Assembly (NCBI RefSeq): GCF_003634315.1
Contig: NZ_RBXL01000001.1
Span: 5,746,501-5,810,500, forward strand
Source of the DNA: Thiocapsa rosea
GTDB lineage: Bacteria; Pseudomonadota; Gammaproteobacteria; Chromatiales; Chromatiaceae
Reading direction: 5' to 3'
Length of the DNA stretch: 64,000 nucleotides
Both the position numbers and the translations under genes were made by a program. Below the pieces are notes generated by a model, which ran no database searches, was not told the origin of the DNA, and saw only the letters and a list, made by a program, of their open reading frames with translations. This document shows, piece by piece, positions 7,686-56,110 of the stretch (position 1 is its first letter; each line of letters starts with the position of its first letter).

Positions 7686-7773
7686 TTAAACCGCGCCGGC
7701 TCCGACAGTTGTCGGAGCCGGCGCGGTCAAACCAATCCAACAAACGACGCATATCGCACCGGGTGCGGTTTAA
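7686..7773. repeat. TTAAACCGCG palindromic element, type A copy 1
   Basis: An 88-bp unit beginning TTAAACCGCG and ending GTGCGGTTTAA. Its left half contains a 17-bp perfect hairpin (stem starting CCGCGCCGGCTCCGACA, 7691-7726). A second copy of the same length and about the same sequence is at 24981-25068, and an inverted one is at 55915-56002. The right end runs straight into AAGGAG, the ribosome binding site of the GH63 pseudogene. Confidence 0.85.
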
Positions 7774-7783
7774 GGAGACTCAC

Positions 7784-8888
7784 GTGAGCGAAGGGCCGAT
7801 CAACGCCGAGCGCGAACGCCTGGAAGAGGCACGCCGAGGAACCGCGGACTGGCGTCTCTGGGGCCCCTATCTCGCCGAGCGCGCTTGGGGAACGGTGCGC
7901 GAGGATTACAGCGCCGACGGCAACGCCTGGGACCACTTCACCCATGAGCAATCGCGCTCGCGCGTCTATCGGTGGAGCGAGGACGGGCTCGGCGGCATCT
8001 GCGATCGCGAGCAGCGACTCTGCTTCGCGCTCGCGCTCTGGAACGGGCGCGACCCCTTTCTGAAAGAGCGCGCCTTCGGGCTCACCGGACCGCAGGGCAA
8101 TCGCGGCGAGGACGTGAAGGAGTGCTGGTTCTATCGCGACGCCCTGCCCACGGCGAGCTATCTGCGCTATCTCTACAAATATCCGCAAGCGCCCTTCCCC
8201 TATCGCGAGCTGATCGAGGAGAACGCCCGGCGCACGCGCGAGGATCCGCCCTACCTGCTCACCGACACCGGCTGTTTCGACGAACAGCGCTATTGGGACA
8301 TCGACGTCTTCTACGCCAAGGCCGGGCCGCGCGAGATCCATATCCGGATCTATCTCAAGAACCGCGGTCCGGATACAGCCTCAAGCAGGCCGATGCGACC
8401 GGCTGGATGGCCATGTTCAGTCTCGACATGACTCTGATCGCACTCGAGCTCTGCGCCAAGGACCGCAACTACGAGGCGATGGCGATCCACTGGCAGCGCC
8501 GTCTGCCTCTGTCCGGACTGGGAAAACGATCGGGGCGAGTACCTGCTCGCCCTGGTCGATCACACCATGCTGCAGCGGATCCTGGAGCGTCTGCTCGACG
8601 AGGAGCAGTTCCTCTCGCGCTTCGGGATCCGCAGCGTCAGCCGCATCCACGCCACCCAGACCCATCTCGGCCGTATCCCCGGCATCGGCGATGCGCTGAT
8701 GGAGTACGTCCCCGGCGAGTCCAACTCGCCCCTCTTCGGCGGCAACTCCAACTGGCGCGGCCCCGTGTGGCTGCCGACCAACTACTCGCTCGTACAGGCG
8801 CTGGAGAAGTACCACCGCTTTCTAGGACCCGGCTTTCAGGTCCCGGTCGCCTGCCAAGACGGCCAACGGCTCAACCTCGCCGAGATCG
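7784..8888 (+). pseudogene. GH63-type glucosidase pseudogene, copy 1
   Basis: It starts at a GTG at 7784 behind AAGGAG and is nearly identical to the intact gene at 19971-22688. Two deletions ruin it. About 1,066 bp are missing between GGATAC and CAGCCTC near 8378; the two parent sites share a TAC-GCC-like microhomology and the loss shifts the frame. About 258 bp are missing near 8492. The 3' end is replaced after GAGATCGCC (about 8888) by sequence that belongs with a Uma2-type gene. Both catalytic-domain halves are damaged, so no enzyme activity is expected. Confidence 0.9.
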
Positions 8889-8917
8889 CCGGTCAACGCG
8901 CCCAGAGCGAAACCCTC

Positions 8918-9418
8918 ATGCACGGCAAAGCCTTGCCACCCCCGCGTCCGCATCGCGTCACCACTCAGGAGTTCTTCCGCATGGGCGAGGCCGGCGTGTT
9001 GGACCCGGACGCCAGGATCGAGCTGATCGAAGGAGAGTTGATCCACATGCCGCCGCACGCCAGTCGCACCAAGCGGCTCACGTTGCTCCTCATCGAAGCC
9101 ATCGGCAGACGCGCGATCGTCTCGACCCAAGATCCGATCCTCCTCGGTGACCTCAGCGCACCTCAGCCCGACATCGCGATCCTCGCGCCGCGGGACGACT
9201 TCTACAGCTCGGGACATCCGCAGGCCGAAGATGTACTTCTGGTCATCGAGGTCGCCGACAGCAGCGTCCGCTACGACCGCATGCGAAAACTGCTGCTGTA
9301 AGCCCGCTACGGCATTCCGGAGGTCTGGCTCATCGACATCCCTGCAAGCGCCATTTGGGGCCAACGATCCCCCCGAGAACGGCGCCTACCGAACGTCCTT
9401 CCAGCTCGGCCCGCCGTA
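8918..9418 (+). pseudogene. Uma2-family endonuclease pseudogene
   Basis: The frame from the ATG at 8918 matches the intact gene at 27845-28429 almost residue for residue. A TAC-to-TAA change ends it at 9301, just after YDRMRKLLL. The remaining codons continue (ARYGIPEVWLIDIP) but carry an indel near 9355 and lose homology near 9418. The PD-(D/E)XK core is present, but the C-terminal third is cut off, so it is probably inactive. It lies directly behind the truncated GH63 copy. Confidence 0.85.
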
Positions 9419-9444
9419 GACAACACCTTCGAGGCGAGGTCTCG

Positions 9445-9731
9445 CCATCGCCTATTTTTGGCAGACCGATCTGCTGGATAATGCCTGCAAATATGGCTGC
9501 GATGAACGCGTGCGCATGAACCGGACGAGCGCACCGGACCGCTTCGTCCTGAAGGTGACCGACCAGGGTCCGGGCATCCTCGCCGCCGACATCGATCGCG
9601 GCTTCGAGCGGTTCTGGCGTGGTCAGGGCAGCCGCCACATTCCAGGTTGGGGGCTGGGTCTTTGGGCCTGCCGCTACGCGGCCCTGTCCCTGGGCGGACG
9701 CATCGAGTACCTTGTCTTCGAACTGATCTGA
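9445..9731 (+). pseudogene. Histidine kinase fragment (ATPase domain only)
   Basis: Only the HATPase_c domain remains: N-box TDLLDNACKYG, G1 TDQGPGI and G2 GWGLGLWAC. There is no start codon, H-box or sensor region, and the left edge adjoins the Uma2 relic. It ends 10 bp before an intact response regulator gene, so it is the 3' stump of that regulator's partner kinase. The closest relative in the window is the broken kinase at 15520-17464. Confidence 0.8.
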
Positions 9732-9741
9732 GCGTTCCACG

Positions 9742-10473
9742 ATGACCAGCGAATTACCCTTGGACGCGCCGCGGATACTGCTGGTGGAAGATGATCCCGT
9801 CGGTGGTAGGCAACTGCTCCGATTTTTGTTGAGTTTCGGCTATGAGGTCGTGTTGGTGGCGGGCCAAGCGGCGGCGGTGGAGCAGATCGCCGCGCACGGT
9901 TTCCAGGGCGCCATCGTCGATCTCACCCTGTCCGACGGCGACGGGTTCGGCGTGCTCGAAGATTTACACCGGCACGCCCCGTCGATCCCGGTGATCTGCA
10001 TCTCTGGCCAAGGCGATCTCAGTGCCCGCGTGCAAGGTCTCAAGGCCGGCTTCGACCACTATCTCGGCAAACCCCTCGAGCCATTGGAGCTTGAGGCGCT
10101 CCTCAGCGCCGCGCTGCGCCGGCAGGCGCAGGAAAAGACGCCCGACCGGCGGAGATCGAGCAATGAACGTTGGACGATCTGCACCGCCGAGCGCTGCCTG
10201 CGCCTGGACGGCAAGCGGATCATCCCCATCACTGACACGGAGCAGCTATTCCTGCGGCAACTGCGCGCCGCGGCCCCGGCGACCCTGGATCGAGCCAGCA
10301 TCATTGCCGGCCTCGGCCAATCCGAGCGCTATTATTTGCGCGCCCGTCTTGACACCATGGTCTCCCGCCTACGTCACAAGATCGCCGATGTCACCGACGT
10401 ACCCCCACCCTTCATCAGCATCTATGGGATCGGTTATGCCTGGGTCGAGACGACTGCCGACGAGACGTCGTAG
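9742..10473 (+). CDS. OmpR-type response regulator (orphaned)
   Basis: 243 residues. The receiver domain (about 10-125) has acidic residues VEDDP, the phosphoacceptor D60 in IVDLTLSDGDG, and the conserved Lys in LGKPLEP. The C-terminal part (about 145-243) looks like a winged-helix DNA-binding domain, ending in ISIYGIGYAWVE like the OmpR/PhoB family. Its kinase gene upstream is only a stump, so the regulator may be unphosphorylated or cross-fed. A damaged paralogue is at 15106-15516. No target site is apparent. Confidence 0.8.
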   Translation: MTSELPLDAPRILLVEDDPVGGRQLLRFLLSFGYEVVLVAGQAAAVEQIAAHGFQGAIVDLTLSDGDGFGVLEDLHRHAPSIPVICISGQGDLSARVQGLKAGFDHYLGKPLEPLELEALLSAALRRQAQEKTPDRRRSSNERWTICTAERCLRLDGKRIIPITDTEQLFLRQLRAAAPATLDRASIIAGLGQSERYYLRARLDTMVSRLRHKIADVTDVPPPFISIYGIGYAWVETTADETS

Positions 10474-10884
10474 CCGCCTCAGCCTGGCATCCTGTCGCCC
10501 CTGCCGCCGTCCACCGCCAGCCGCCCGCATCCAACCCGTGTCCATCAACGCGACGTAAGAATTCGTCAGAAAGCGTCGATATTGGTTTATAGAGCGACAG
10601 CCATCCGCCGACTACCCTCTAAAGGAAGCGGGCATCCGCAGACGTGATCTTTACCCCCAATCGGGTATCGGAACCGCCTCGGCGCGAATGACGCAAAGAC
10701 CACCCCTGCCATCGGCTCGTCCTCTGGACGGGAAGCCTCTCAATGGATTGCGCCTTTGCCGTTCGACTGCTTACCCGGGGGTTGCCCATGCGGCCCCGGA
10801 CATGATCCAAGCGAGGATGCGAGCCGGCCCGCTGCCGCGTCAATCCGCTGTTTCCGGACGCTCAGACACGAGGGCAAAGACCCG
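10474..10884. other. Intergenic region before the secreted-protein trio
   Basis: 411 bp without a convincing gene. It must hold the promoter of the three-gene unit, but I could not identify unambiguous -35/-10 boxes. A GAGGG site lies just upstream of the ATG at 10885. Short rightward ATG frames here have no family resemblance. Confidence 0.4.
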
Positions 10885-11958
10885 ATGAAAACGCTAAGTC
10901 CATCAACCCTGCGGCGCGCGGGTGTCGCGCTCTTACTTGTCGCCGCCGGCCATGCCAGCGCTGTCCGCGCCGAGCACCGGGTCGTTGCCGACCCCCGTCC
11001 CGCCATCTATCCAGCGGTCTGCAAGGGCAGAGCCGTGACCACCGGACTGTGCCTGCTCGGCGCCATTGTTCCGCGCGCGACCGGCGACTTCCTGATCAGC
11101 ATCCCCATCATCGGCCCAGCCGCCGGGGACGATATCCAGGTCCCGCTGAACACCAATATCCCGCTCCCCCCCGGCGACTATGTGCTCTATCAGGCGAGCG
11201 GACTGGACGACGGTCACCGGCTTCATGTCGTGGTGACCGAAGGCGAGATTACACGCATCAAGACGGCAACCATGCAGTTCTTGGATCGGCGCGGCAGCAA
11301 CATCAAGCTCCAGCATTACGAATCACGCGACGGGGCGAATGGCGCCGGTTGCGAGGCCGAGATCGGCAATCGCGGGGTGCATGCGTTGCTGCCCGGCACC
11401 TATCAGGCGAGCCTGGTCTCGCGCCCGTACGAAGAGGCCCCGCGCTGCGTCAGCAATGGCGTGACCTTCAACGTCATGGCCGGCAAGGCGGTGATATTGC
11501 ATCAAACCAAACTGGTCGAGAACAGCCTTGTCCCCGGGAACAGATTCCACGATCGCTCCCGCGCGCTGGGCCTGACCAACGTCGACTCCTACCGCCACGG
11601 CGTCAGCGAGATCGGCTTCCTTCCGGTGTTCCAGTCCCATCGTGGCGTCCATTACCCGAGCTCGGCCAGGGTCAGCGCGCTGGTCCTGTCCGGGCCGCCA
11701 AATTTCGTCTTCGCGATCCCGATGAAGGTCTCGCGCGGCGCCAACTGCGGTCTGTCGCTGGAGGCCGGCGGCCTGCCGGCACAGGTCCTTCTCACCGATT
11801 GCGTCTTCGATTCGAGCGGCGACCTGACCAGCTTCAAGGTCAATGCGGGCAACTATTACGCCTTCGATAACACCCACGGTAAGTCGGCGGTCGCCGGGCA
11901 CAGCATCAACAGCCCAGTCGTCGTGCGCGGGGTCAAGTTCAACCTGAGGGGCCAGTGA
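10885..11958 (+). CDS. Exported hypothetical protein, first of a coupled trio
   Basis: 357 residues. The ATG at 10885 is followed by a textbook Sec signal peptide (Lys/Arg start, then GVALLLVAAGHASAVRA) with likely cleavage before EHRV. The mature part is beta-rich in appearance, with several Cys residues (AVCKG, GLCLLG, GAGCEAE, PRCVSNG, ANCGLS, LTDCVFD) that could form periplasmic disulfides. I recognise no family. It is translationally coupled to the next gene. Its location in a decay-rich block suggests acquired DNA. An upstream in-frame extension was rejected because it lacks a ribosome binding site. Confidence 0.7.
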   Translation: MKTLSPSTLRRAGVALLLVAAGHASAVRAEHRVVADPRPAIYPAVCKGRAVTTGLCLLGAIVPRATGDFLISIPIIGPAAGDDIQVPLNTNIPLPPGDYVLYQASGLDDGHRLHVVVTEGEITRIKTATMQFLDRRGSNIKLQHYESRDGANGAGCEAEIGNRGVHALLPGTYQASLVSRPYEEAPRCVSNGVTFNVMAGKAVILHQTKLVENSLVPGNRFHDRSRALGLTNVDSYRHGVSEIGFLPVFQSHRGVHYPSSARVSALVLSGPPNFVFAIPMKVSRGANCGLSLEAGGLPAQVLLTDCVFDSSGDLTSFKVNAGNYYAFDNTHGKSAVAGHSINSPVVVRGVKFNLRGQ

Positions 11959-11960
11959 TC

Positions 11961-15516: not shown

Positions 15517-15519
15517 GGA

Positions 15520-19115: not shown

Positions 19116-19642
19116 GGTCAGAGTCCTCTCGGTGTAGGGCCGTGTTTCACTCTTGCGTTGTCTCAAACCGCCACCCCTTCGCTCCACCCGCATTACCGGG
19201 TATCAACGCTACTCCAGGTGGCTCCGACTTCCGCGCATCGCTGCCCGCGTCCTCGCTTTTGACACTTGTTCGCGGGTGCCCGCCTCCGGCGGACCGATAC
19301 ACGGATCTCCCTGGTTACCGCGTACTCTCGATGTCAGGCTCGATGTGGTCTCGGACCCCGGGGAGTTCCCGTGCCACTCGCCACAGCGCGTCACGGTCTG
19401 TTGCCTGCCGGGGGGACAAACCCGTCGGCACTCACCCATGTTCTTTTCGGGGCTCAATACCTTCAAGGTCGGCTCCACCCGTTACCCTTACACCTCGCCT
19501 GCTTTCGTGCCTACGCATCGACGCGCCTGTTACCAGCCGCGCCGCAAGGCTCGATACCGGGCTCGTGGCTAGCGATTACCCGGACGGGGGTCCCACCCGC
19601 TAGAATACGCAGCCTTGCCAGGCCGCACTGTCCCCGGAACTG

Positions 19643-19874: not shown

Positions 19875-19960
19875 CTAAACCGCGTCCCCGCCAAGGGTTG
19901 TGGATGCAGCAAACGTCGAACTCACTCGAAAATGAGCATCTCGCTCTGAACGCGGTTTAA
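19875..19960. repeat. TTAAACCGCG element, type B copy 1
   Basis: An 86-bp unit from CTAAACCGCG to CGCGGTTTAA with the internal signature AACGTCGAACTCACTCGAAAA. The sequence differs from type A. Related copies are at 45231-45300 (right end lost) and 56024-56110. The final TTAA overlaps AAGGAG, the ribosome binding site of the GH63 gene. Confidence 0.8.
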
Positions 19961-19970
19961 GGAGACTCAA

Positions 19971-22688
19971 GTGAGCGAAGGCCCGATCAACGCCGAGCGC
20001 GAACGCCTGGAAGAGGCGCACCTCGGCACCGTCGACTGGCGTCTCTGGGGCCCCTATCTCGCCGAGCGCGCTTGGGGAACGGTGCGCGAGGATTACAGCG
20101 CCGACGGCAACGCCTGGGACCACTTCACGCATGAGCAATCGCGCTCGCGCGTCTATCGGTGGAGCGAGGACGGGCTCGGCGGCATCTGCGATCGCGAGCA
20201 GCGACTCTGCTTCGCGCTCGCACTCTGGAACGAACGCGACCCCTTTCTGAAAGAGCGCGCCTTCGGGCTCACCGGACCGCAGGGCAATCGCGGCGAGGAC
20301 GTGAAGGAGTGCTGGTTCTACCGGGATGCGCTGCCCACGGCGAGCTATCTGCGCTATCTCTACAAATATCCGCAAGCGCCCTTCCCCTATCGCGAGCTGA
20401 TCGAGGAGAACGCCCGGCGCACGCGCGAGGATCCGCCCTACCTGCTCACCGACACCGGCTGCTTCGACGAGCAACGCTATTGGGACGTCGATGTGTTCTA
20501 CGCCAAGGCCGGCCCGCGCGAGATCCATATCCGCATCTATCTGAAGAACCGCGGCCCGGATACCGCCGAGATCCATCTCTTACCGACCCTCTGGTTCCGC
20601 AACACCTGGTCATGGGACGAGGGTGCGCAGACTCCAATGCTGCGGGCGGCAACCGCCCCGAACGGCGCCGCCTGGGCGATCGAGGCGGAGCACCCGACGC
20701 TCGGCACCTATCACCTCTACGGCACCCATCCCGCCGAGCTCCTCTTCACCGAGAACCTCTCCAACGCCGAGCTTCTCTGGGGTAGTCCCAACCCTTCACC
20801 CTACGTCAAGGATGCCTTTCACCGTCGCGTGGTTCAGGGCGACACGGCAGCGGTCAATCCGGCGCTCACCGGTACCAAGTGCGCGGCCTGGGGCCGTTGG
20901 ACGGTCGGCCCGCAGCAGCACGCCATGGTCGATCTCGTGCTCAGCGCCGAGCCGCTCGCCGATCCCTTCGCGCGCAGCGAGCGCACGCTCTCCATCCGCC
21001 AATCCGAGACCACCGTCTTCTACGACGATCTCCTGCCCGAGGCGAGCGCGACGGACCACCGCATCCTCCGCCAAGCCCTCGCCGGCATGGTCTGGACCCA
21101 GCAGTTTTATCACTACGACGTCGAACGCTGGCTCAGCGGCGATCAGCTCCCGCCGCCCCAATCACGCCGGCAGGGACGCAATCGGCATTGGCGCCATCTC
21201 AAGGCGCACGACATCATCTCGATGCCGGACGCCTGGGAATATCCCTGGTTCGCCGCCTGGGACCTGGCCTATCACTGCCCTGCCCTGGCCCTGTTGGATG
21301 TCGACTTCGCCAAGGATCAGATCGAGCTGATGCTCTCGGATCGCTATCTGCACCCGAACGGTCAGATCCCGGCGTACGAGTGGGGTTTCGACGACGCCAA
21401 TCCGCCGGTTCACGCGCAAGGCGCACTCAAGGTGTTCCGCGCCGAGCGGGTGCAGCGCGGCACGGGCGACCTGGATTTTCTCGAGCGCGTCTTCCACAAG
21501 CTTCTGCTCAACCTCGCCTGGTGGATCAACCGCAAGGATGCCGACGGACACAACCTCTTCGAAGGCGGATTCCTCGGACTCGACAACATCTCGGTCTATG
21601 ACCGCTCGCGCCCGCTCCCGCCCGGTTACAGCCTCAAACAGGCCGATGCGACCGGCTGGATGGCCATGTTCAGTCTCGACATGACGCTGATCGCACTCGA
21701 GCTCTGCGCCAAGGACCGCAACTACGAGGCGATGGCGATCCATTGCTACAAGCAGTTCCTCGCGATCGGCGAGGCGATCGCCGGCAACGCGGAGACCGGA
21801 ATGCCCTCGCTCTGGGACGAGGAAAAGGGCTTCTTCATGGACCTTTTGGTCACGCCGGACGGGGTCGGTCACCGCATCGAGGTCTATTCCTGGGTCGGCC
21901 TCATCCCACTCTTCGCCGCCGAGATCGTCGACCGGCGGCTCCTCGCCAATGCCCCGCGCTTCGCCGACCTGCTGGGAGAACACCAGGGTGGACTCTTCCG
22001 CGGCAGCGCCGTCTGTCTCTGTCCGGACTGGGAGAACGACCGCGGCGAGCACCTGCTCGCCTTGGTCGATCACACCATGCTGCCGCGGATCCTGGAACGT
22101 CTGCTCGACGAGGAACAGTTCCTCTCGCGCTTCGGGATCCGCAGCGTCAGCCGCATCCACGCAACCCAGACCCATCTCGGCCGTATCCCCGGCATCGGCG
22201 ATGCGCTGATGGAATACGTCCCCGGCGAGTCCAACTCGCCCCTGTTCGGCGGCAATTCCAACTGGCGCGGCCCCGTGTGGCTGCCGACCAACTACTCGCT
22301 CGTGCATGCGCTGGAGAAGTACCACCGCTTTCTCGGACCCGGTTTTCAGGTCCCGGTCGCCTGCAAAGACGGCCAACGGCTCAATCTCGCCGAGATCGCC
22401 ACCTTGATCGCCGAGCGCCTCGTCGATCTCTACCGACCCCCGAACGGTTCGCCGCCCCCGGCACTCGTGCGCGAGGGTCATCTGCATGAGGACGTCCACT
22501 GGCGCGACCTGCTGAGCTTCCACGAGTATTTCCACGGCGAGACCGGCGAGGGCCTCGGCGCCTCGCACCAAACCGGGTGGACCGGATTGCTCGCCAACCT
22601 GGTGATGCGCCGCTATAGGAAGGACATCACCCCTTGGAGCGGGCTGGACCGCGGGACCGAGGCCGCGCCGATCGACGAGCTTGCGTGA
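19971..22688 (+). CDS. GH63-family glucosidase
   Basis: 905 residues beginning at a GTG behind AAGGAG. The protein matches the large bacterial glucosidases of glycoside hydrolase family 63 (relatives of processing alpha-glucosidase I). The N-terminal region begins [18 protein letters not shown]; a beta-rich part follows; the (alpha/alpha)6 catalytic domain starts near residue 380. Likely catalytic acid D431 lies in WEYPWFAAWDLAYHC, and a conserved C-terminal acid/Trp region reads GNSNWRGPVWLPTNYSL. There is no signal peptide, so it acts in the cytoplasm, probably on alpha-glucosides or glucosylated compatible solutes; the substrate cannot be read from sequence. It partners by context with the debranching enzyme. 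Copy 1 at 7784 is dead, so this is the only working version here. Confidence 0.85.
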   Translation: MSEGPINAERERLEEAHLGTVDWRLWGPYLAERAWGTVREDYSADGNAWDHFTHEQSRSRVYRWSEDGLGGICDREQRLCFALALWNERDPFLKERAFGLTGPQGNRGEDVKECWFYRDALPTASYLRYLYKYPQAPFPYRELIEENARRTREDPPYLLTDTGCFDEQRYWDVDVFYAKAGPREIHIRIYLKNRGPDTAEIHLLPTLWFRNTWSWDEGAQTPMLRAATAPNGAAWAIEAEHPTLGTYHLYGTHPAELLFTENLSNAELLWGSPNPSPYVKDAFHRRVVQGDTAAVNPALTGTKCAAWGRWTVGPQQHAMVDLVLSAEPLADPFARSERTLSIRQSETTVFYDDLLPEASATDHRILRQALAGMVWTQQFYHYDVERWLSGDQLPPPQSRRQGRNRHWRHLKAHDIISMPDAWEYPWFAAWDLAYHCPALALLDVDFAKDQIELMLSDRYLHPNGQIPAYEWGFDDANPPVHAQGALKVFRAERVQRGTGDLDFLERVFHKLLLNLAWWINRKDADGHNLFEGGFLGLDNISVYDRSRPLPPGYSLKQADATGWMAMFSLDMTLIALELCAKDRNYEAMAIHCYKQFLAIGEAIAGNAETGMPSLWDEEKGFFMDLLVTPDGVGHRIEVYSWVGLIPLFAAEIVDRRLLANAPRFADLLGEHQGGLFRGSAVCLCPDWENDRGEHLLALVDHTMLPRILERLLDEEQFLSRFGIRSVSRIHATQTHLGRIPGIGDALMEYVPGESNSPLFGGNSNWRGPVWLPTNYSLVHALEKYHRFLGPGFQVPVACKDGQRLNLAEIATLIAERLVDLYRPPNGSPPPALVREGHLHEDVHWRDLLSFHEYFHGETGEGLGASHQTGWTGLLANLVMRRYRKDITPWSGLDRGTEAAPIDELA

Positions 22689-24874: not shown

Positions 24875-24960
24875 TTAAACCGCGTCCAGAGCGAAATGCG
24901 TCATTTTCACGCTGTGTTCAGCGTCGGGGGCTTCCTCGATCTTGGCGAGACGCGGTTTAA
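24875..24960. repeat. TTAAACCGCG element, type C
   Basis: An 86-bp unit from TTAAACCGCGTC to GACGCGGTTTAA: 12-bp perfect inverted ends around a distinct core (AGAGCGAAATGCGTCATTTT). A partial relative starts at 41690. It forms a pair with the type A copy starting 20 bp further on. Confidence 0.8.
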
Positions 24961-24980
24961 AATTTAATCTTTTTATGACT

Positions 24981-25068
24981 TTAAACCGCGCCGGCTCCGA
25001 CAGTCGTCGGAGCTGGCGCGGCCAAGCCATTCTAACGCATGACGCATACCGCACCGGGCGCGGTTTAA
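24981..25068. repeat. TTAAACCGCG element, type A copy 2
   Basis: 88 bp, same length as copy 1 at 7686-7773 and differing at only a few positions. The internal hairpin has one compensated change (GTCGTCGGAGCTGGCGCGG). It ends GCGGTTTAA 37 bp before the hybrid kinase start and so lies in its leader. Confidence 0.85.
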
Positions 25069-27637: not shown

Positions 27638-27844
27638 ATCCGGAAGCGCGGTGGCGAGGTCGGGGCGCCTCCGTCGCGCGTAGCCACCCTCCGGGATCCC
27701 CGCAGACCTTGAGCCCAGCCCCTTTTGTTTCCCCCGGGGTTCGCTATTGCTCACACCAACCTGCGCGGACTGCCCTTGTCTCCCTCCCGCCGACCGGCTA
27801 ACCTCGAGCACATCGCCGGTCAACGAGCCCAGAGCGAAAACCTC

Positions 27845-28429
27845 ATGCACGCCAACGCATTGCCACCCCCGCGTCCGCATCCTGTCACCACGCAGGAGTT
27901 CTTCCGCATGGGCGAGGCCGGCGTGCTCGACCCGGAGGCGAGGATCGAGCTGATCGAAGGAGAAATGATCGACATGCCGCCGATCGCACCGCCTCACGCC
28001 AGTCGCACCACGCGACTGACCCTGCTGCTCATCGAGGCCATCGGACGGCGGGCCGTCGTCTCCACCCAAAACCCGATCCTCCTCGGTGATCTCAGCGCAC
28101 CTCAGCCCGACATCGCGATCCTCGAGCCGCGGGACGACTTCTACAGCTCGGATCATCCGCAGGCCGAAGATGTCCTTCTGGTCATCGAGGTCGCCGACAG
28201 CAGCGTCCGCTACGACCGCAACCGAAAACTGCCGCTGTACGCCCGCCACGGTATCCCCGAGGTCTGGCTCATCGACATCCCTGCGCGCGCCATCTGGGTC
28301 CACCGAGCCCCCGAGAACGGCGTCTACCGAACGTCTTTTCAGCTTGGCCCGCCGTATCGGATCAGCCCCGCGATGCTGGACGGCGTGGAACTGGAGCTTG
28401 GCGCACTGGTGAACGACGGTGGCACGTGA
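27845..28429 (+). CDS. Uma2-family (DUF820) putative restriction endonuclease
   Basis: 194 residues. The PD-(D/E)XK core reads IELIEGEMIDMPP, QPDIAILEPRDDFY and VLLVIEVADSS, followed by YDRNRKLPLYARHGIPEVWLID. This layout is that of the Uma2 family, widespread in Cyanobacteria and some Proteobacteria; the biological role is unsettled. The ATG at 27845 fits the family start (motif TTQEFFRM near residue 16). It is a near twin of the pseudogene at 8918, with which it also shares about 35 bp upstream of the ATG. Confidence 0.8.
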   Translation: MHANALPPPRPHPVTTQEFFRMGEAGVLDPEARIELIEGEMIDMPPIAPPHASRTTRLTLLLIEAIGRRAVVSTQNPILLGDLSAPQPDIAILEPRDDFYSSDHPQAEDVLLVIEVADSSVRYDRNRKLPLYARHGIPEVWLIDIPARAIWVHRAPENGVYRTSFQLGPPYRISPAMLDGVELELGALVNDGGT

Positions 28430-36467: not shown

Positions 36468-37196
36468 ATGAAACCCCTTGTGATCGAAAACGACGTCATC
36501 GCAGACCTCGCGTTGGACGTCACGCAGGCGGTGCTCGCCAAGAGCGAGGAAGCCCGGACGATCATGGAGGACCCATCCGGGCCGATAGACCTGGCGCGGG
36601 CCCTGGCGGACTTCTTCCCGGTCGCCGAGGCATTGGAAAGCGGAGGGGCGCACCTGGAGCAGGAACACCTGCAGGAGTTCTGCGCCTACGGGCTGGACTT
36701 GCTTGACCGTCTCGCCTTCCTGGTGCGGAAGGTCGAGATCATGGACAAGAGAGACACGGTTGCGCGGATGTTTGCATCGATGGGGGTTTGGGTGGCTCGT
36801 CGCGGCGCCACCATCGAGAACCTGGAAGGCACCGCCGACGGCTTCGGCATGATCGTGAACGCCACGAGCGCGACCGATGATCTCCGATCCTTGTGCGGCC
36901 TCATGGAGGAGGTCATCGAGGCGGCATCGACGAAGCTGCAACTCGACGAGGATCGTGGTGACGCCTGGCGTCCTTGGCGCGTCATCAATCTCAACGCCGG
37001 CATTGCCGCAACCCGATCGCTCGACCCGGAGCTCATGGAGCAAACGTTCGAAAAAATGAGCCGACGGCTGCCTTACGATATGCCGGGTTTCCTGGCCGAC
37101 GGAATGCGGCAAGCGACCTTCCAAAACGTACCGGAGGCGGTCAAGGACGTGATGCGCAAGTACCTGGAGAGGTGGCCGGCCAACGCGCTCCACTAA
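36468..37196 (+). CDS. Hypothetical protein, 242 aa
   Basis: A soluble, helix-rich, acidic protein (ENDVIADLALDVTQAVLAKS near the start, then LARALADFFPVAEALESGG). No motif or family is recognised. The ATG at 36468 is preferred over a TTG two codons earlier; the ribosome binding site is weak. The TAA stop codon is supplied by CTAAACCGCG, an end of the dispersed palindromic family, so the original C-terminus may have been altered by that element. Confidence 0.55.
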   Translation: MKPLVIENDVIADLALDVTQAVLAKSEEARTIMEDPSGPIDLARALADFFPVAEALESGGAHLEQEHLQEFCAYGLDLLDRLAFLVRKVEIMDKRDTVARMFASMGVWVARRGATIENLEGTADGFGMIVNATSATDDLRSLCGLMEEVIEAASTKLQLDEDRGDAWRPWRVINLNAGIAATRSLDPELMEQTFEKMSRRLPYDMPGFLADGMRQATFQNVPEAVKDVMRKYLERWPANALH

Positions 37197-37899
37197 ACCG
37201 CGTCCAAGTGGATTGACTCCGATCCGGGCCGCTCACCACTTTGACGGCTTACACCATTGCTCGGTACCGGTGCGTGCCTCCATTGCCGTCGTGACGAAGG
37301 CGGCCTGAATCGGGCTATCGCGCGACCAGCTCGACCCTCCGATTCATGGCTCGCCCGGATTCGGTGGCATTGGATGCGACGGGCGCAAGATCGGCAACGC
37401 CGGCCGGGACGAGTCGAACGCGATCAATGTCCGCTTGCGCGACGAGAGCGGCAACAACCGCCTCGGCGCGGGCTCGCGAGAGGCTCAGGTTGGATTCATA
37501 GCCGCCGACATTGTCGGTGTGACAGACGACATAGAGGTTCAACGCCGACTGCGACTCGTGTCCGCATGTGGCGCTGTTCCCCAATCCGCAGTCACCCGCA
37601 GCCCCTGCTGCGCCACCGGGGTCGCGTCCGGTCACAGCGAAGCGGGTGGCGATCGGGGATCCTTCCGGATGCCTTTCTCCGCATCGGGCTTCGGCATCCC
37701 TTCCGTCGTGAATATAGACCGAAACCCTCCGACAACAATCCAGATACACGCGGGAAGCCGGCAGGTTACAGCGGCGGTCCAGACTCATCTGCAACCGGAT
37801 CGGACATGGCGCCTCGTCATCCCGACCGGGAAACCCCCGATCACCGCCTCGCGACGCATCCGGCGGTGATCCAGTGCAGATCGATCGGAGGAGACCCGC
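37193..37899. other. Intergenic region with a lone repeat end and an OmpA relic
   Basis: About 700 bp. It begins with a single TTAAACCGCG-type end (ACTAAACCGCGTC, 37192-37204) without a matching right end nearby. It holds the OmpA-domain relic at 37315-37545 and otherwise shows no coding sequence. GGAGGAGAC just before 37900 is the ribosome binding site of the methyltransferase gene. Confidence 0.5.
37315..37545 (-). pseudogene. OmpA-like peptidoglycan-binding domain relic
   Basis: Leftward translation gives LYVVCHTDNVGGYESNLSLS, then RARAEAVVAALV and NRRVELVAR at the stop. This matches the second half of an OmpA_C-like domain (HTDNxGxxxxNxxLSxxRAxAV, NRRVE). The first half of the domain and any signal peptide are not in frame upstream. 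It is a remnant of an outer-membrane or periplasmic protein. Confidence 0.75.
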
Positions 37900-41687: not shown

Positions 41688-41689
41688 CC

Positions 41690-41827
41690 CTAAACCGCGT
41701 CGAGCGCGAAAAGCGGCATTGACACTTTTGTTTCGGTGATCTCCGGGAAAGGATCTACCGACAGAGCCGCAACCAGGAAAAGGGGTCGAAGGCTCTACTC
41801 GTTGTCGTTGTCGTTGTCGTTGTCGTC
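41690..41827. repeat. Partial TTAAACCGCG element and GTTGTC hexamer run
   Basis: CTAAACCGCGTCGAGCGCGAAA at 41690-41711 resembles the left end of the type C element; no right end follows. Further on, GTTGTC is repeated four times in tandem at 41801-41824, a simple-sequence tract prone to slippage. The stretch lies between the OFA and SulP genes, which converge. Confidence 0.55.
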
Positions 41828-45189: not shown

Positions 45190-45300
45190 TCGGAGCCGGC
45201 GCGGTTCAATATATTCAATAATATATCATTTTAAACCGCGCCCTCGCTAAGGGCTGTGGACGCACCAGACGTCGAACTCACTCGAAAAGCAGCCTCTCGC
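45190..45300. repeat. Decayed pair of TTAAACCGCG elements
   Basis: The right arm of a type A hairpin (GTCGGAGCCGGCGCGGTTCA, 45190-45209) is followed by about 21 bp of AT-rich DNA and then a type B element from TTAAACCGCG at 45231, whose core (GTCGAACTCACTCGAAAA) is intact. The right end is missing before the cbiO gene at 45311. Confidence 0.7.
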
Positions 45301-48044: not shown

Positions 48045-48089
48045 ATAAACCTCTAAGGGATCGCCCGTCCCGTTGGTGAATGGGGGTTC

Positions 48090-48253
48090 GGCAGGTCTCC
48101 TGACTCGCGCGTCGTCGGCATCACCGGCCTTCCCGGGCCGTCATCCCTTGCGGATGACAGCGCCCAGTGGCGTCAGCGGTGGGCCTCGGCGCTTACAGTT
48201 GCGGGGACAGTCACGGAATCGGCCGCAGTCGGCGTGCCTCACCGTGTTCCCTT
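48090..48253 (-). promoter_or_regulatory. Cobalamin (B12) riboswitch
   Basis: Read on the minus strand, the conserved blocks come in the right order: an AAAGGGAACACGGTG opening, the strongly conserved TGTCCCCGCAACTGTAAGCG, GCCACTGGGCGC, GGGAAGGCCGGTGATG and the closing AGTCAGGAGACCTGCC at 48090-48105. The cbiM start lies about 45 bp downstream. Adenosylcobalamin binding should switch off cobalt uptake. The upstream edge abuts a palindromic element (48252-48318). Confidence 0.93.
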
Positions 48254-48318
48254 TAAACCGCGTTCGGAATGACCGGGCACAGGTGAGAACAACACCCGTC
48301 ATTCCTGATGCGGTTTAA
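48252..48318. repeat. TTAAACCGCG element, short type D
   Basis: 67 bp from TTTAAACCGCG to GCGGTTTAA with an inner hairpin made of GGAATGACCGGG and CCCGTCATTCC. It touches the 5' edge of the riboswitch, exactly where the cbiM promoter would be expected. Confidence 0.8.
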
Positions 48319-50422: not shown

Positions 50423-50578
50423 TGGCGTACCTGCTTGGGTGGGATGGGTGCGGGAGGTTCCTGCCTCCTGCTTCCTGCTTCCTGCTTCCTGCTTCCTGCT
50501 TCCTGCTTCCTGCCTTCTGCTTCCTGCCTCCTGCTTCCTGCTTCCTGCCTCCTGCCTCCTGCCTCCTGCTTCCTGCCA

Positions 50579-50748
50579 ACTCGCTCCCACGCTCCGCGTG
50601 GGAGTGTAGACCCGACGCTCTGCGTCGCGGGGCGGGGCGGTACCGGTCGCGGATCGGCGCCGTGACGGACCGCCGGCGGTGCGCATCGACCTGCGGCAGG
50701 GACGCGGAGCGTCCCGGCGACACTCCCACGCGGAGCGTGGGAGCGAGT
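50579..50748. repeat. 170-bp inverted-end element, copy 1
   Basis: Begins ACTCGCTCCCACGCTCCGCG and ends with the exact reverse complement over 28 bp. Each end is itself palindromic (CCCACGCTCCGCGTGGG). The core contains GACGCTCTGCGTCGCGG. It has no open reading frame of note, so it is MITE-like. Confidence 0.88.
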
Positions 50749-50874
50749 ACGGCTCCTGCTTCCTGCCTCCTGCCTCCTGCCTCCTGCCTCCTGCCTCCTG
50801 CCTCCTGCCTCCTGCTTCCTGCTTCCTGCTTCCTGCCTCCTGCTTCCTGCGTCCTGCCTCCTGCTTCCTGCCCA

Positions 50875-51044
50875 ACTCGCTCCCACGCTCCGCGTGGGAG
50901 TGTAGACCCGACGCTCTGCGTCGCGGGGCGGGGCGGTACCGGTCGCGGATCGGCGCCGTGACGGACCGCCGGCGGTGCGCATCGACCTGCGGCAGGGACG
51001 CGGAGCGTCCCGGCGACACTCCCACGCGGAGCGTGGGAGCGAGT
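50875..51044. repeat. 170-bp inverted-end element, copy 2
   Basis: Same length and apparently identical sequence to copy 1 at 50579-50748, also embedded in the heptamer arrays, 126 bp further on. Identity suggests a recent tandem duplication of array plus element rather than two insertions. Confidence 0.88.
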
Positions 51045-51169
51045 ACGGCTCCTGCCTCCTGCCTCCTGCTTCCTGCTTCCTGCTTCCTGCCTCCTGCCTC
51101 CTGCTTCCTGCTTCCTGCTTCCTGCTTCCTGCTTCCTGCCTCCTGCTTCCTGCTTCCTGCTATCAGCCT

Positions 51170-52765
51170 TAACCAACTGAAGTTTCCCGTCTTCCTCAGG
51201 CGACCAGCCGCATGACTGCAACGATGAGGGGATTTCGGGTGCCTTGGCCGGGATCGTCGCAGTCGACCCCGAAACCCACGTCGGCGAGATCATGTGCAAG
51301 CGCTCGGCGCACATCGGCGAAGGCATATTCGGTCCGACGCGCAGCGGCGTAGCGCCGTGCGGGGGCTTGCTCCAAGCTGGCCGCGTAGATCCAGGTAATG
51401 GTGGTGGCCACCATACAGAAGTGCAGATGGTTGGTGACCGCATCGGGATTGCGGGTCTGCGTCTGGGCACTGCCGATCTCCTGCTTGATTTCCCTGAATC
51501 CGGCTTCTATTTTCCAGCGCGCGCCATAGATTTCAATCATTTGTTCAACGGATAGGGTCAGGTCGGTGGTCACCAGTGCGATCCATTGGGTACGCCGGTA
51601 GACCCACACCACGCGCACCTGGCAGCGCAGGGACTTGAGCATCACCACCTGCTCGGCGGCCACCACGTCGCGAACCCGCCCGTAGAGGTTGAGGGAATAA
51701 GTCCGCGCGGTGGCCCGCAGTGCGGTCTGCATCGCCTTGACACTGCCCAGACGCTCCCCGTACTTGCGGGGTCGTCCGGCGCGTCCCGGCACGGCCACCG
51801 GCAGATCGTGGAGCACCGCGTTCACGCGCAGGCGCGAGAGCAGATGGGCACGGGAGCCGAGCGCCCGGCGCAACGGTTTGAGCAAGCCGTTGTTGCCGAA
51901 CCAGCTGTCGGTGACCACCAGGATCGGCGCCCGCGGAAAGACCCCGGCGAAGCTCTGGATCAGGCGCACGGCTTGGGTGAACTTGGTCTCGAAGGTGAGC
52001 ACCCGACCGCGGATGCGCACGCTGCGCAGCGCCAGGGTCGCCCTGCGCAGGTAAAAGGCGAAGGCCAACGGCAGGCAACACCAGCGCCCGTGAATGACCT
52101 TCAGCAGTCCGAGCGTGACGATGGTCTGCGCCCACGGAAACGAGCTCTGATTGGTCTTGGCGGCATGGTCGAAGCTGCGCTGGCAGGCAAACACCTTGGT
52201 GCCGGTCTTCGGATTGATCGAGTCGTCCAGCACCACCAGCAGGCGCCCGTCGGTGAGGGGGTCGGGGATCGCCCGCCAGAGCACCGCCCAGATCCGCGTC
52301 CACGGCAGCTTCACCGAGGCCATGAAGGTGTAGTACCTGGCCTCGCCGATCACCACGCCGAAGAGCGTGGCGATGGTGCGCAGCAGGTTGGAGGTACGCG
52401 AGGCGGTGATCGGCAACAGGATCGCCTGCAGCGTGAGAATGAACCAGCGGGCGCGTTCTCGGCCGTGGTCGGAGTTCGGAAAAAGGCCCTGGAATTGAAT
52501 GGCGAGTGCGGGTAGGATCGACATCGAATGCGGCTCGTATTTGGCGTCTAATCATTGGCTTAGGCACCTTTCATTATACGCTTGCGCGAGCCCGCATTCA
52601 TCTTCAACTGCTTGTTTATTCACCGAATCGTCCGCGTTTTTCACACGCGTTTGGTCATCGTGGCAGCTTGGATTTCGTCAATAAGCTTTCACTAATATGC
52701 GCGCATATTCGTGGTTGCTTATATTATGATATGGCTGTATGAAACTGAGAAACTTCAGTTAACCA
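51170..52765. mobile_element. Insertion sequence with 6-bp target duplication between atpA and atpB
   Basis: Element 51176-52759 (1,584 bp). Terminal inverted repeats begin ACTGAAGTTTC at both ends. The direct repeat TAACCA flanks it at 51170-51175 and 52760-52765. One transposase gene reads leftward, the same direction as the ATPase operon. The AT-rich 230 bp between the right end and the transposase start probably carries its promoter. It sits within the repeat-filled gap of the V-ATPase operon. Confidence 0.88.
51196..52524 (-). CDS. DDE transposase (IS4/IS701-like)
   Basis: 442 residues from the ATG at 52524. Catalytic triad: Asp in [14 protein letters not shown], Asp in [12 protein letters not shown], and Glu in [20 protein letters not shown]. 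Basic linker [13 protein letters not shown]. The frame is complete and ends 20 bp inside the left terminal repeat. It differs clearly from the transposase at 967-2352, so two unrelated elements have hit this window. Confidence 0.85.
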
Positions 52766-52773
52766 ATTCCCTT

Positions 52774-52842: not shown

Positions 52843-52847
52843 CGAAC

Positions 52848-54611
52848 CTACCCCCCTCCCCCATCCCGCGCCTCGTTGATCAGCCTCCGAATCGTGCCCG
52901 TCAGTTCCTGATCGAGGGCGGAGAAGGTCTCCCAGTCGCCCTCTTCGATCTCCTCGCCCATGCGCAGGAGGCGACGGAAGATGGGTTGATCGCGGATCGC
53001 CTCGGGGGCGACGCCGGCGTCGAGCAGGCGTTCGGAGCCTTCGATGAAGCTGCCGATCAGGCGCATCATGACGGCTTGGCGCGACGGGCTGGCGTAGCGA
53101 TCGTTCATGGAATAGGCGGACTGGCGCAGGAAGCACTCGTTGACCAGCTGGGCGCAGATAAGCACGAGCCGCTGGCGCGCGGGCATGGCGTCGCGTCCGA
53201 TGATGCGGGCCATGCGCTCCAAACGGGCCTCGTCCTCCAAGAGCGTCAGGAAGCGTCGACGCAGCTCCTGCCAGCGCGTACATCCGGTGTTGTGCCACCA
53301 ACGCGCGAGGTTTCCGGCGACCAGACTGTAGGACTGCAGAGGGTGGATCGCCGGGTAGAAGCGCGCCTGCGCCCGTTTGGCGTCGAGGCCCCAAAGCGAG
53401 CCGACATAGCGTCTGGTGTGCGTGGTCACGGGCTCGGAGAAGTCGCCCGAGGGCGGACTGACCGCACCAAGCAGCGTAACCGATCCGGTCTCCCCGCCCA
53501 GCGTGCGCACCCGCGCGGCGCGCTCGTAGAAATCGGCCAAGCGACTGCTCAGATAGGCCGGGTAGCCGGCCTCGCCGGGCAGCTCGCCGAGCCGGCCGGA
53601 GACCTCGCGCAGGGCCTCGGCCCAGCGGCTGGTGGAGTCCGCCATCAGGGTGACGTTCATGCCCTGGTCACGGAAATACTCGGCCACCGTGATGCCGGTG
53701 TAGATGCTGGCCTCGCGTGCGGAAACGGGCATGTTCGAGGTGTTGGCGATGACGACGGTGCGTTCGAGCAAGGGACGTCCGCTGCGCGGATCTTCCAGCT
53801 CGGTGAACTCGGCGAGCAAGCCGGCCATCTCGTTGCCGCGCTCGCCGCAACCGACATAGACGATGACATCGGCGTTGCACCACTTGCCGACGGTCTCGAG
53901 CAAGACCGTCTTGCCTGTGCCGAAACCGCCCGGAATGGCTCCGGTGCCGCCGCGCGCGACCGGGAACAGACAGTCGATGACACGCTGCCCGGTCAACATG
54001 GGCTCGTCCGAAGGCAGTCGCGCCTGCACGGGTCGCGGCACCCGCACCGGCCACGCGTGGGTCATGGCGACCTGAAGGTGCCGACCATCGGCGGCGTCGA
54101 TCCAGCAGATCGGCTGGTCGTCCGCATACTCGCCGGCGTCCGCGATGGCGGTGACGCGCCCGCCCGGCAGATCCGCAGGCACCAGGCAGCGCTGCGCGAT
54201 GCCGGTCCCGTTCGCGACCTCGCCGATCGCAGCACCAGGCATCAGGGTCTTGCCGACGCACACGCTCGGGGTGAAGTGGAACCGCCGGGCGGCCTGTACC
54301 TGCATCCCCGGCGTGACGTAGGGATCGGCGATGTCCGCGATGGGACGCAGCAGTCCGTCGAAGATCCCGGCAAGAATCGCCGGCCCGAGACGGATCGACA
54401 GGAGCCGACCGGAGCCCGTGACCTCGATCCCGGGGCGCAGGCCGCTGGTGTCCTCGTAGAGCTGGACGGTGATCTCGTCGCGGGCGATCCGGATCACCTC
54501 GCCGAGCAGCGCCTGATCACCGACGGTGACCGACTCGCGCAGACGGAAAGCCCCGTCGGGGCGTGCCCGCAGGACAGGGCCGCTGATCCAGGTGGTTTGC
54601 GCCGTGCTCAT
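52848..54611 (-). CDS. atpA: V-type ATPase catalytic subunit A, operon 1
   Basis: 587 residues. N-terminal barrel with GEVIRIARDEITVQLYEDTS, the bulge domain typical of A subunits (about 115-195), Walker A GGFGTGKT (228-235), VGCGERGNE with the catalytic Glu (257-261), LMADSTSRWAEALREVSGRL and the C-terminal helical domain. It hydrolyses or makes ATP at the A/B interface. The stop is followed 5 bp later by a heptamer array and the IS, so transcription into atpB and atpD may be weakened. Confidence 0.94.
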   Translation of the reverse strand: MSTAQTTWISGPVLRARPDGAFRLRESVTVGDQALLGEVIRIARDEITVQLYEDTSGLRPGIEVTGSGRLLSIRLGPAILAGIFDGLLRPIADIADPYVTPGMQVQAARRFHFTPSVCVGKTLMPGAAIGEVANGTGIAQRCLVPADLPGGRVTAIADAGEYADDQPICWIDAADGRHLQVAMTHAWPVRVPRPVQARLPSDEPMLTGQRVIDCLFPVARGGTGAIPGGFGTGKTVLLETVGKWCNADVIVYVGCGERGNEMAGLLAEFTELEDPRSGRPLLERTVVIANTSNMPVSAREASIYTGITVAEYFRDQGMNVTLMADSTSRWAEALREVSGRLGELPGEAGYPAYLSSRLADFYERAARVRTLGGETGSVTLLGAVSPPSGDFSEPVTTHTRRYVGSLWGLDAKRAQARFYPAIHPLQSYSLVAGNLARWWHNTGCTRWQELRRRFLTLLEDEARLERMARIIGRDAMPARQRLVLICAQLVNECFLRQSAYSMNDRYASPSRQAVMMRLIGSFIEGSERLLDAGVAPEAIRDQPIFRRLLRMGEEIEEGDWETFSALDQELTGTIRRLINEARDGGGG

Positions 54612-55237
54612 GTCTCGCCCCCCGCATCTGTCGGATGCCGTGCCAACACCGCCAACAGGCGCGCTTCCAACCGTCGGCGGTCACGCAGCAGACCCTCGAG
54701 GCTCGCATCCAGAACCGCGCCCTGCGCTTCGATAACGAGGCCGGCAGACACGGCGCCATCGGCCCGAAAATGCGGCGCCTGACCCAGCGCCCGGGTCAGC
54801 TCGGCCTCGAACGCTCCCCATTCGGCCGCGGACCACTCGGGCGGGTGGCGCACCGTCCAAAGGCCGAGCGGGAGCCGTCGCCGCGCCTGAGCGATGGCAT
54901 CCCTGGCCCAGATATCGCGGGTTTCTTGATGCGCCCAGCGCCGGCTCAGCGCCTCGTGCAGACGCGGCCACGCCAGCTCCAGGAGTCGCGCATTGGCCCG
55001 ATCTCCGCTCGCGCGCAGACGGGTGTCGTGCTCGGCGCGTGCGGCGTGGAGACGGGATCGCGCATTCGCCCGTTCCGAGGCCACGCGCTCGTGAAGCTGC
55101 GCGCGTGCGCGTCGATAGGCAGTGGCGAGAAGGGTCTTCGCCTCGGCGCGCGCCGTCTCCAAAAGCGCACGACACTCCGCGTCCCGATACTCCTCGATCA
55201 GGTGCAGCAAACCACGTTCGCGCTCCTCGAGCTTCAT
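54608..55237 (-). CDS. atpE: V-type ATPase subunit E, operon 1
   Basis: 209 residues. Long charged N-terminal helix (ERERGLLHLIEEYRDAECRA) and a globular C-terminal part (LVIEAQGAVLDASLEGLLRD), the form of the peripheral-stalk E subunit, which pairs with the G/H-type helix protein. The stop overlaps the start of atpA by 4 bp and the start overlaps atpF by 4 bp. Sequence is divergent; the call rests on motif, length and position. Confidence 0.8.
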   Translation of the reverse strand: MKLEERERGLLHLIEEYRDAECRALLETARAEAKTLLATAYRRARAQLHERVASERANARSRLHAARAEHDTRLRASGDRANARLLELAWPRLHEALSRRWAHQETRDIWARDAIAQARRRLPLGLWTVRHPPEWSAAEWGAFEAELTRALGQAPHFRADGAVSAGLVIEAQGAVLDASLEGLLRDRRRLEARLLAVLARHPTDAGGET

Positions 55238-55530
55238 TCGGCCATCCCCAAATGGCGCCGCACCTCGGCAACGAGATCCGGCGCCGCAACACGGTTGCGC
55301 ACGTCCGGGATCACCAAGACCAGCGGCCAGGTCGCCGACTCCGCGTCTCTCAACAGATCGGGCGGCAACGCGGCCGCGACCTCGGCGGTCACGACGATGA
55401 CACGGGCCTCCTCGCGCAGCCGTTGAAAGAGCGCACGCACCTCCGACGGCTCAGGGCAATGGACCTCGACCCCCGCGAGCCGGAACCCGAGCCCGCTGAC
55501 CTCGTCGCCCAGAAAGACGCAGGCGGCCAT
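55234..55530 (-). CDS. atpF: V-type ATPase subunit F, operon 1
   Basis: 98 residues. Begins ACVFLGDEVSGLGFRLAGVE, the conserved start of the Rossmann-like F subunit (usually GDxxTVxGFRLAG), and has ARVIVVTAEVAAAL and LVLVIPD. Part of the central stalk, modulating rotation. Lies between atpK and atpE, overlapping the latter. Confidence 0.85.
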   Translation of the reverse strand: MAACVFLGDEVSGLGFRLAGVEVHCPEPSEVRALFQRLREEARVIVVTAEVAAALPPDLLRDAESATWPLVLVIPDVRNRVAAPDLVAEVRRHLGMAE

Positions 55531-55543
55531 GACGATGTGCCCC

Positions 55544-55900
55544 TCAACCGAGCCGATTGAGGATCAACACCGAGATGATGAGGCCGTAGATGGCGATGCC
55601 TTCGGCGAGCCCGACCAGGATGACCATCCGCCCGAACAGCTCGGGCTTCTCGGCCAAGGCACCGACGGCCGCGGCACCGATGGTCGCGACCGCGTAGGCC
55701 GCGGCGACCGAGCCCACCATGGTCGCAAGAGCGGCCGCCAGGTATCCCCAGCGCAGCACATCCGGGTGGATCGGCATCACCTCGGGCGCGACGACCTCGG
55801 AGGCGATCGCACCCGGCTGCCAGAGCAGCAGGCTGGAGATCCCGGCGAGCAGGGCGACGCCCAGCACCATCACACCGGCGAACAGGATTTGTCGATTCAT
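55544..55900 (-). CDS. atpK: V-type ATPase proteolipid c subunit, operon 1
   Basis: 118 residues. An N-terminal signal-like helix (ILFAGVMVLGVALLAGISSLLLW), then one c-type hairpin: AAAYAVATIGAAAVGALAEKPE and MVILVGLAEGIAIYGLIISVLIL with the ion-binding E100. There is a single hairpin per chain, unlike the doubled eukaryotic form. The helix lacks the Gln/Thr ligands of sodium-type rings, so proton use is likely. A good ribosome binding site (AAGGAG, complement of CTCCTTG) lies upstream, next to a palindromic element. Confidence 0.9.
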   Translation of the reverse strand: MNRQILFAGVMVLGVALLAGISSLLLWQPGAIASEVVAPEVMPIHPDVLRWGYLAAALATMVGSVAAAYAVATIGAAAVGALAEKPELFGRMVILVGLAEGIAIYGLIISVLILNRLG

Positions 55901-55914
55901 GACTTCACTCCTTG

Positions 55915-56110
55915 TTAAACCGCGCCCGGCGCGGTATGCGATGTTTTCGGGATGGGAACAGCCCCGGCAGACTGCACGACCGCTGGAGCCTGCGCGGTTT
56001 AAGTTATTAAAAAATTTATTATTTTAAACCACGCCCCCCGCGAAGGCTCATGATCGCACCCGATGTCGATCTCACTCGAACATGCGCGTCTCGCACTGGA
56101 CGCGGTTTAT
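55915..56110. repeat. Pair of TTAAACCGCG elements inside V-ATPase operon 1
   Basis: First unit 55915-56002 (88 bp) is a type A element in reverse orientation. After 21 bp of AT-only-rich DNA (GTTATTAAAAAATTTATTATT region, 56003-56023) comes a type B element, 56024-56110. The pair fills most of the gap between atpI and atpK. Confidence 0.85.

Follow-up and report, generated by a model that had tools for sequence, protein, structure and literature searches.

The stretch of 64,000 nucleotides analysed here (the window) comes from the 6.11 Mb genome of Thiocapsa rosea (G000; contig NZ_RBXL01000001.1, positions 5,746,501 to 5,810,500) and contains dispersed palindromic units with shared ends, lying singly or as facing pairs. 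These units very probably belong to a family of miniature inverted-repeat transposable elements (MITEs) of the IS630 type (Tc1/mariner), the canonical element being about 195 bp long and its transposase being no longer found in the genomes that carry it. The window holds the following units, linkers and lone ends.

7686..7773, + strand: single 88 bp unit of type A, lying immediately upstream of a gene-like open reading frame (ORF)
19875..19960, + strand: single 86 bp unit of type C, which precedes a second copy of the ORF that follows 7773
24875..24960, − strand: left half of the two-unit element 24875-25068, of type D
24961..24980, no strand: AT-rich linker between the inner ends of the 24875-25068 element
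24981..25068, + strand: type A unit, right half of the same element
37193..37202, + strand: lone end with one mismatch
41690..41715, + strand: lone C/D-type outer end of a truncated unit
45190..45300, no strand: decayed two-unit element, with an A inner-end remnant (45190-45209), an AT-rich linker (45210-45230) and a C-type unit without outer end (45231-45300)
48253..48318, no strand: 66 bp unit with the same ends and a different core, a separate type
55915..56002, − strand: type B unit, 88 bp, left half of a two-unit element
56003..56023, no strand: AT-rich linker of the 55915-56110 element
56024..56110, + strand: type C unit, right half of the same element

A preliminary description, made from the letters of the window, had proposed a dispersed family with shared ends and at least four core types, and both proposals hold. 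The coordinates it gave for the palindromic units are accurate, two of them being off by at most one base. The unit at 55915-56002 has the 88 bp ascribed to it there, but it belongs to type B, in reverse orientation, and not to the type of 7686 and 24981. The units at 24875-24960 and 24981-25068, and those at 55915-56002 and 56024-56110, which had been listed separately, constitute one two-unit element each, joined by an AT-rich linker. The pieces at 45190-45209 and 45231-45300 are decayed, as had been said, and form together one two-unit element.

Exact copies of TTAAACCGCG amount to 956 in the T. rosea genome, 477 and 479 on the two strands, whereas the reversed control gives 1 + 5 copies, 6 in total; the ends are therefore far commoner than expected. 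Within the window there are 18 matches with at most one mismatch, against 2.04 expected, and none of 100 shuffles reaches 18. The organization of the family was studied in a 464 kb sample of the genome composed of the window and 20 stretches picked around listed matches, so that densities drawn from it are biased. From the 105 units found, 93 measure 86-88 bp, and 92 of the 98 that span 83-89 bp can be assigned to four core types (A 27, B 26, C 14 and D 25), the other six falling outside A-D. Units end in YTAAACCGCG. Twenty-six pairs of units lie 18-28 bp apart and in 25 of them an A or B unit faces a C or D unit, the remaining one being C with D. The linker between paired units is AT-rich, about 21 bp long and of the type TTAAGATATTAAAAAATATATCATTTTAA. 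A full two-unit element of 193-196 bp hence comprises an 86-88 bp A/B unit, the linker and a C/D unit in opposite orientation, with inner copies of the terminal 9-mer. Single units are present beside the pairs. Both forms, mostly units of 86-88 bp and pairs of 193-196 bp, are below transposase-coding size. The mobile form is more likely the pair of about 195 bp than one 86-88 bp unit, which the preliminary description had taken as the element.

The exact two-unit junction pattern was found 161 times in T. rosea, 153, 69, 89, 43, 86, 42 and 32 times in seven congeners, and outside the genus 27 times in G028 and 101 times in G042. It is missing from congeners G006, G007 and G010, which have only 0-4 exact ends, and the reversed control gives no occurrence in any of the 13 genomes. 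Among 63 genomes outside the genus, only G042 (587 ends) and G028 (117 ends) stand out, while the others have at most 27 ends, about the level of the reversed control. Ten genomes thus bear the repeats: G000-G005, G008 and G009, all Thiocapsa, and G028 and G042 from other genera. Class-wide, the junction pattern occurs in one genome out of 369, T. rosea itself, and the transposase at E 1e-30 in none of them; this speaks for rarity outside the family rather than absence, since the sample included only four family members. Plasmids and phages gave no match to the pair consensus. The C/D outer end is found, among the listed named records, in Thiobaca trueperi, Thiocystis minor and metagenome-assembled genomes of Chromatiaceae. 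A Chromatiaceae-type end is also borne by JAGYOB010000111.1 (L171, L211), labelled Candidatus Nanopelagicales, which is probably a mis-binned contig.

The insertion history was examined by comparing orthologous sites in four syntenic blocks and one further locus. At eight elements, four pairs and four single units, other Thiocapsa genomes present an empty state of 3-6 bp that includes TA at six of the eight sites, and occupied sites have TA on either side of the insert. At L032 13363 the empty state is TTAG in G002, G006 and G010 and TCAG in G007; at L032 15659 it is TTAG in three genomes and TTAA in one, with 9 bp in G001 and AGAT in G010; and at L043 5118 it is TTAG in three genomes, with CTAGT and GTA in two more. 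The three other sites with TA show TTAC, or TCAC in G006 (L137 1770), TAC or TTAC (L044 11066) and TTAA (L044 17194). G008 has short but not clean states at two further sites, L032 14954 and L134 14853. Copies are therefore not fixed at the same sites in all relatives. The L137 1770 pair is present in G005 and missing from the seven other genomes mapped there, and a unit downstream of a gene that we take to resemble prfB is common to six genomes; from this it follows that movement went on during the radiation of the genus Thiocapsa. No very young copies appeared among the matches listed, as the queried pairs are at most 96% identical across species and at most 94% within T. rosea.

The outer ends relate the family to IS630. 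When the surroundings of DDE_3 genes were searched for inverted repeats bounded by TA, without reference to the repeat, they yielded L058 in G007, an IS630-family element of 1275 bp with ends AACCGAGCCTAGCCCGAGATACGT and AACCCCGCCCAGAGCGGGATACGT, whose 293-residue frame is assigned to IS630 by NF033545 (155 bits, cut-off 100) and PF13358. Its transposase has some match at E 0.001 in 59 of 194 family genomes, many of these being distant IS630, and matches of about 60% identity or more come from other genera, for example G173 (89%), G086, G142, G193 and G184. Both ends of the insertion sequence (IS) could be read in seven genomes (G007, G173, G086, G142 with three copies, G184, G109 and G188), and single ends in further genomes. 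In the seven genomes the ends are TA-flanked and of the form AACCsCGyCCAGAGCGrGATGCGTAATTTT; the query for this reading was made partly from the repeat, and the ends at six loci were located without reference to the repeats. An exact TAAACCGCG start is present in both G184 ends and in 7 of the 8 ends read in G014. Between the D outer end and the right end of the G173 IS, 40 of 49 bases agree (score 53, z 19), the maximum of 400 shuffles being 20. The outer ends of A, B, C and D each score above every one of 400 shuffles with one or more of eight IS ends.

On these grounds we propose that an IS630-family DDE transposase would have attached to the outer ends (TA-AACCGCGYCCRGWGCGRYATGCG...), excised the element and inserted it at a TA, leaving TA on both sides. 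The elements would have been mobilised in trans, by an enzyme that may since have become extinct in their carriers. Since the enzyme is not found in the genomes carrying the repeats, the elements are probably what is left of a mobile family that was formerly active. The suggestion in the preliminary description that the repeats are non-autonomous, MITE-like and moved through their termini is thus supported by the empty sites in relatives and by the match of the ends to IS630-family IS.

Several observations weigh against this interpretation. No listed transposase match of at least 60% identity occurs in G000-G005, G008, G009, G028 or G042, so that the enzyme is represented by a relative found elsewhere; the best match to the L058 transposase in these ten genomes, that of G001, has 40% identity along 118 residues and contains two stops, and G003 and G008 have no match. 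An assembly gap is an unlikely cause, since G001 and G004 are single contigs and T. rosea is in two. In the window, where the preliminary description had seen no matching transposase, lie none of the 7 DDE_3 and none of the 9 Y1_Tnp matches of T. rosea, the two families searched. Similarity to the IS ends is lower for the A and B outer ends, whose best z is about 10, and weak for the inner ends (z 0.6 to 7.6), some of which still exceed their shuffles, as the shared first nine bases would lead one to expect. Two empty sites lack TA in any mapped relative: L044 7627 (TTCA/TTCC, three relatives) and L044 18400 (CTGA/CCGA, six relatives). Finally, since insertion the outer ends have evolved less quickly than the body; this is unexpected of dead MITEs, although few sites are concerned.

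This last point derives from six shared sites, at which variable columns number 5/84 in outer ends, 1/24 in TA, 14/100 in inner ends, 152/733 in the body, 39/104 in the linker and 170/1200 in the flanks, two rows lacking one alignment across both flanks having been left out. Pairwise, without the discovery row, divergence is 4.2% (14/336) in outer ends, 6.4% in inner ends, 12.3% in the body, 25.2% in the linker and 7.3% in the flanks. Copies found by their interior alone (111 of 126 matches, those covering 75% of the interior) have ends 0-4.5% off consensus and interiors 9-14% off, the latter partly reflecting subfamily variation. It could accordingly be supposed that elements derived from an IS630 MITE are now kept by the host, their terminal palindromes having a cellular role, be it to supply stop codons, to give structure to RNA 3′ ends or to bind proteins. 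The conserved outer ends favour it, as do the two following results. In the 464 kb sample including the window, the dominant frame reaching an element is stopped by the element's TAA at 35 of 53 boundaries against 125 of 318 control YTAR sites; insertion into a stop codon would be tolerated, because TAG or TAA becomes TAA. The arms of unit A co-vary, with 19 double-changed cells against a maximum of 13 in 1000 shuffles. But co-variation can predate insertion and 44 stem cells are still unpaired; the divergence counts come from six sites only, with related rows, and finding sites through intact ends biases them, though the difference holds without the discovery row. Three congeners, moreover, live practically without elements. 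Placement, determined with a crude home-made gene caller, adds little to such a role: with 81% of the sample scored as coding, 4 of 78 elements fall within predicted ORFs, and the 57 placed between genes comprise 34 tandem, 14 convergent and 9 divergent cases versus 161, 52 and 44 regions (17 of the 78 are in neither class), with no clear excess at convergent genes (14/57 versus 52/257). Maintenance by the host is, in our estimation, unlikely.

Much less probable still is a repetitive extragenic palindromic (REP) family spread by a REP-associated tyrosine transposase (RAYT, a Y1 HUH transposase) that recognises hairpins, the facing units being a REP doublet (REPIN), as the other half of the guess in the preliminary description had it. 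Two facing hairpin units in hundreds of extragenic copies would suit it, and Y1_Tnp matches exist in all 11 genomes of the genus. REP hairpins have a GTAG/GGAG foot motif, however, and the unit ends YTAAACCGCG have none. Eight of the nine Y1_Tnp loci of T. rosea (6-7 kb fetched) contain no complete unit, each end being allowed at most two mismatches, but do have a few lone ends. At the ninth the nearest unit is 1.3 kb away and is the orthologous one downstream of the prfB-like gene, while the Y1 gene itself is also present in G007 and G010, both without repeats. The 30 Y1_Tnp loci fetched from the genus have scattered lone ends and no complete unit within about 1.2 kb, so that in the loci examined no RAYT-like gene, which the preliminary description had advised to look for with the same ends in its flanks, adjoins a complete unit. 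Since the outer ends match IS630-family IS and the empty sites mostly have TA, the family is better regarded as an IS630-type MITE than as a REPIN. A structured RNA or another functional repeat that was never mobile is the least probable origin of all: the units fold strongly, but no Rfam family reaches threshold over the A-D units of the window, insertion polymorphism with empty sites is observed and the ends match an IS.

Three candidates for a mobiliser or a parental copy were discarded. Among 30 DDE_3 loci fetched from the genus only L059 has an end within one mismatch, and this end is a truncated repeat beside an IS having other ends. As for a long copy with a gene between outer ends, many end pairs lie within 4 kb in the DNA scanned; the pairs inspected, and nearly all pairs to judge by their complete units, are separate elements around other DNA, an IS1595 insertion being the exception. 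This IS1595-family element (NF033547, 180 bits) has its own ends and 7-8 bp duplications and merely sits inside the linker. It occupies the AT-rich linker of a pair in five of eight full copies examined (L043 at 515-1600, L330, L331, L333 and L334) and lies elsewhere in L332, L335 and L336, although copies found, as these were, by similarity to one sitting in a pair may favour that location. L335 and L336 have the same flanks in two species, and a ninth copy, L337, is without one end. A distant IS630 transposase remnant (38%) in G001, L301:1754-2298, begins 7 bp from the end of a pair.

One-unit and two-unit states alternate at shared sites. At W2 11915 (window 55915-56110) a B−/C+ pair is present in G000, G002, G003 and G008, and in G004 with a decayed C, whereas G005 has the B unit alone, in place. 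At L032 14954 the B unit of G004 and the C−/B+ pair of G009 both have GTCAAAACTGCC, deviating from the B consensus, and the G004 unit begins at the outer boundary of the G009 pair. Both cases would be explained by loss of one unit and the linker between direct TAAACCGCG copies, a deletion from which single units may at least partly arise.

Occupants also change. Different unit types are found at four of about 10 sites filled in at least two species, a number obtained by merging sites by hand and omitting unmapped or 'other' rows and W2 4253 (66 versus 168 bp). L032 14954 harbours B−/C+, C−/B+, A or B; L043 5118, A versus B−/C+; L134 14853, C versus D; and at L032 19485 a D-like left part in G003 is joined to the right end of the resident, a variant filed by the script under A or B. 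The sites that agree are L032 13363, L032 15659, L121 9935, L124 4860 with its orthologues, W2 11915 and L044 3625. In the window, the ORF behind 7773 and its second copy behind 19960 (94% similarity across 300 bp) have an A and a C unit, respectively, in the corresponding position. Conversion between copies is suggested by the G003 mosaic, the alternative being repeated insertion at a preferred TA. One might go further and imagine that a dead MITE family has turned into a common system of interchangeable hairpins at the ends of genes, the sites acting as fixed sockets. Units would then be swapped between species, and between the gene copies of the window, by ectopic conversion or repeated insertion, with outer ends kept and body and linker drifting; we regard this as a doubtful, speculative extension.

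Correia elements are abundant, TA-ended, hairpin-forming MITEs. The MITEs of Ca. Thiomargarita nelsonii have the same properties, and no parent IS was found for them (PMC4853749). The Thiocapsa family differs in that a likely parental IS group has been identified in sister genera, and the likeness is one of described features. The RUP repeat of Streptococcus pneumoniae is 107 bp long, has ends like IS630-Spn1 and was proposed to be moved in trans (PMC3049150). The Thiocapsa repeats are likewise short with ends resembling those of IS630-family IS; but the IS of RUP is common in the same species, whereas none matching was found in the repeat-bearing genomes, and the Thiocapsa element is built of two units, with an AT-rich linker between them and the terminal 9-mer repeated at the inner ends. 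ISY100, an IS630-Tc1-mariner element, targets TA and duplicates it on insertion, and mini-elements retaining 30 bp at either end are as mobile as the complete IS (PMC2170065). The Thiocapsa elements are similarly bordered by TA, yet carry no transposase. REPINs and bacterial interspersed mosaic elements consist of palindromic units in alternating orientation with linkers, and REPs are targets of other IS (PMC3116915, PMC2817692, PMC1525189). The alternating palindromic units and the linker are shared with them, in contrast to the TA borders, the IS630-like ends and the lack of RAYT linkage. IS630-linked MITEs are thus already known, and the Thiocapsa family departs from them by its double-unit plan, absent parent, slow outer ends and changing occupants. 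No earlier description of it appeared among the open papers listed for the end sequence and for Thiocapsa repeats. The picture looks like that of a burst of MITE activity whose products have survived their enzyme, with hundreds of ends in eight Thiocapsa genomes and two of other genera, a likely parental IS group in sister genera and insertions ordered by their empty sites. The genus is a natural experiment on the fate of palindromic repeats, from decay and the loss of one half to a change of occupant and the arrival of a further IS, and the repeats matter for annotation and strain comparison of purple sulfur bacteria.

Other observations concern the surroundings of the elements. At L043:9209-10751 a segment of about 1.15 kb with ORFs that presumably resemble HipA/HipB is enclosed by two pairs of like orientation, and the G001 matches on either side of this segment are just 151 bp apart. 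In the window, the place of the 66 bp unit at 48253-48318 is taken in G001 by 168 bp with the same ends, and a cobalamin riboswitch match (48073-48292, − strand) overlaps this unit by 40 bp. Gene pieces 87-97% alike are duplicated at 7749-9349, 19936-22301 and 27789-28288; the similarity of two of the gene copies starts inside a unit's end, and the two units differ in type. An Rfam match to group II intron D1-D4-6 lies at 19346-19593 (− strand), about 280 bp before the 19875 unit. At 50423-51221, arrays of a 14 bp repeat are found inside duplicated segments of about 296 bp with CTCCCACGCTCCGCGTGGGAG palindromes, and pieces like these recur elsewhere in the T. rosea genome.

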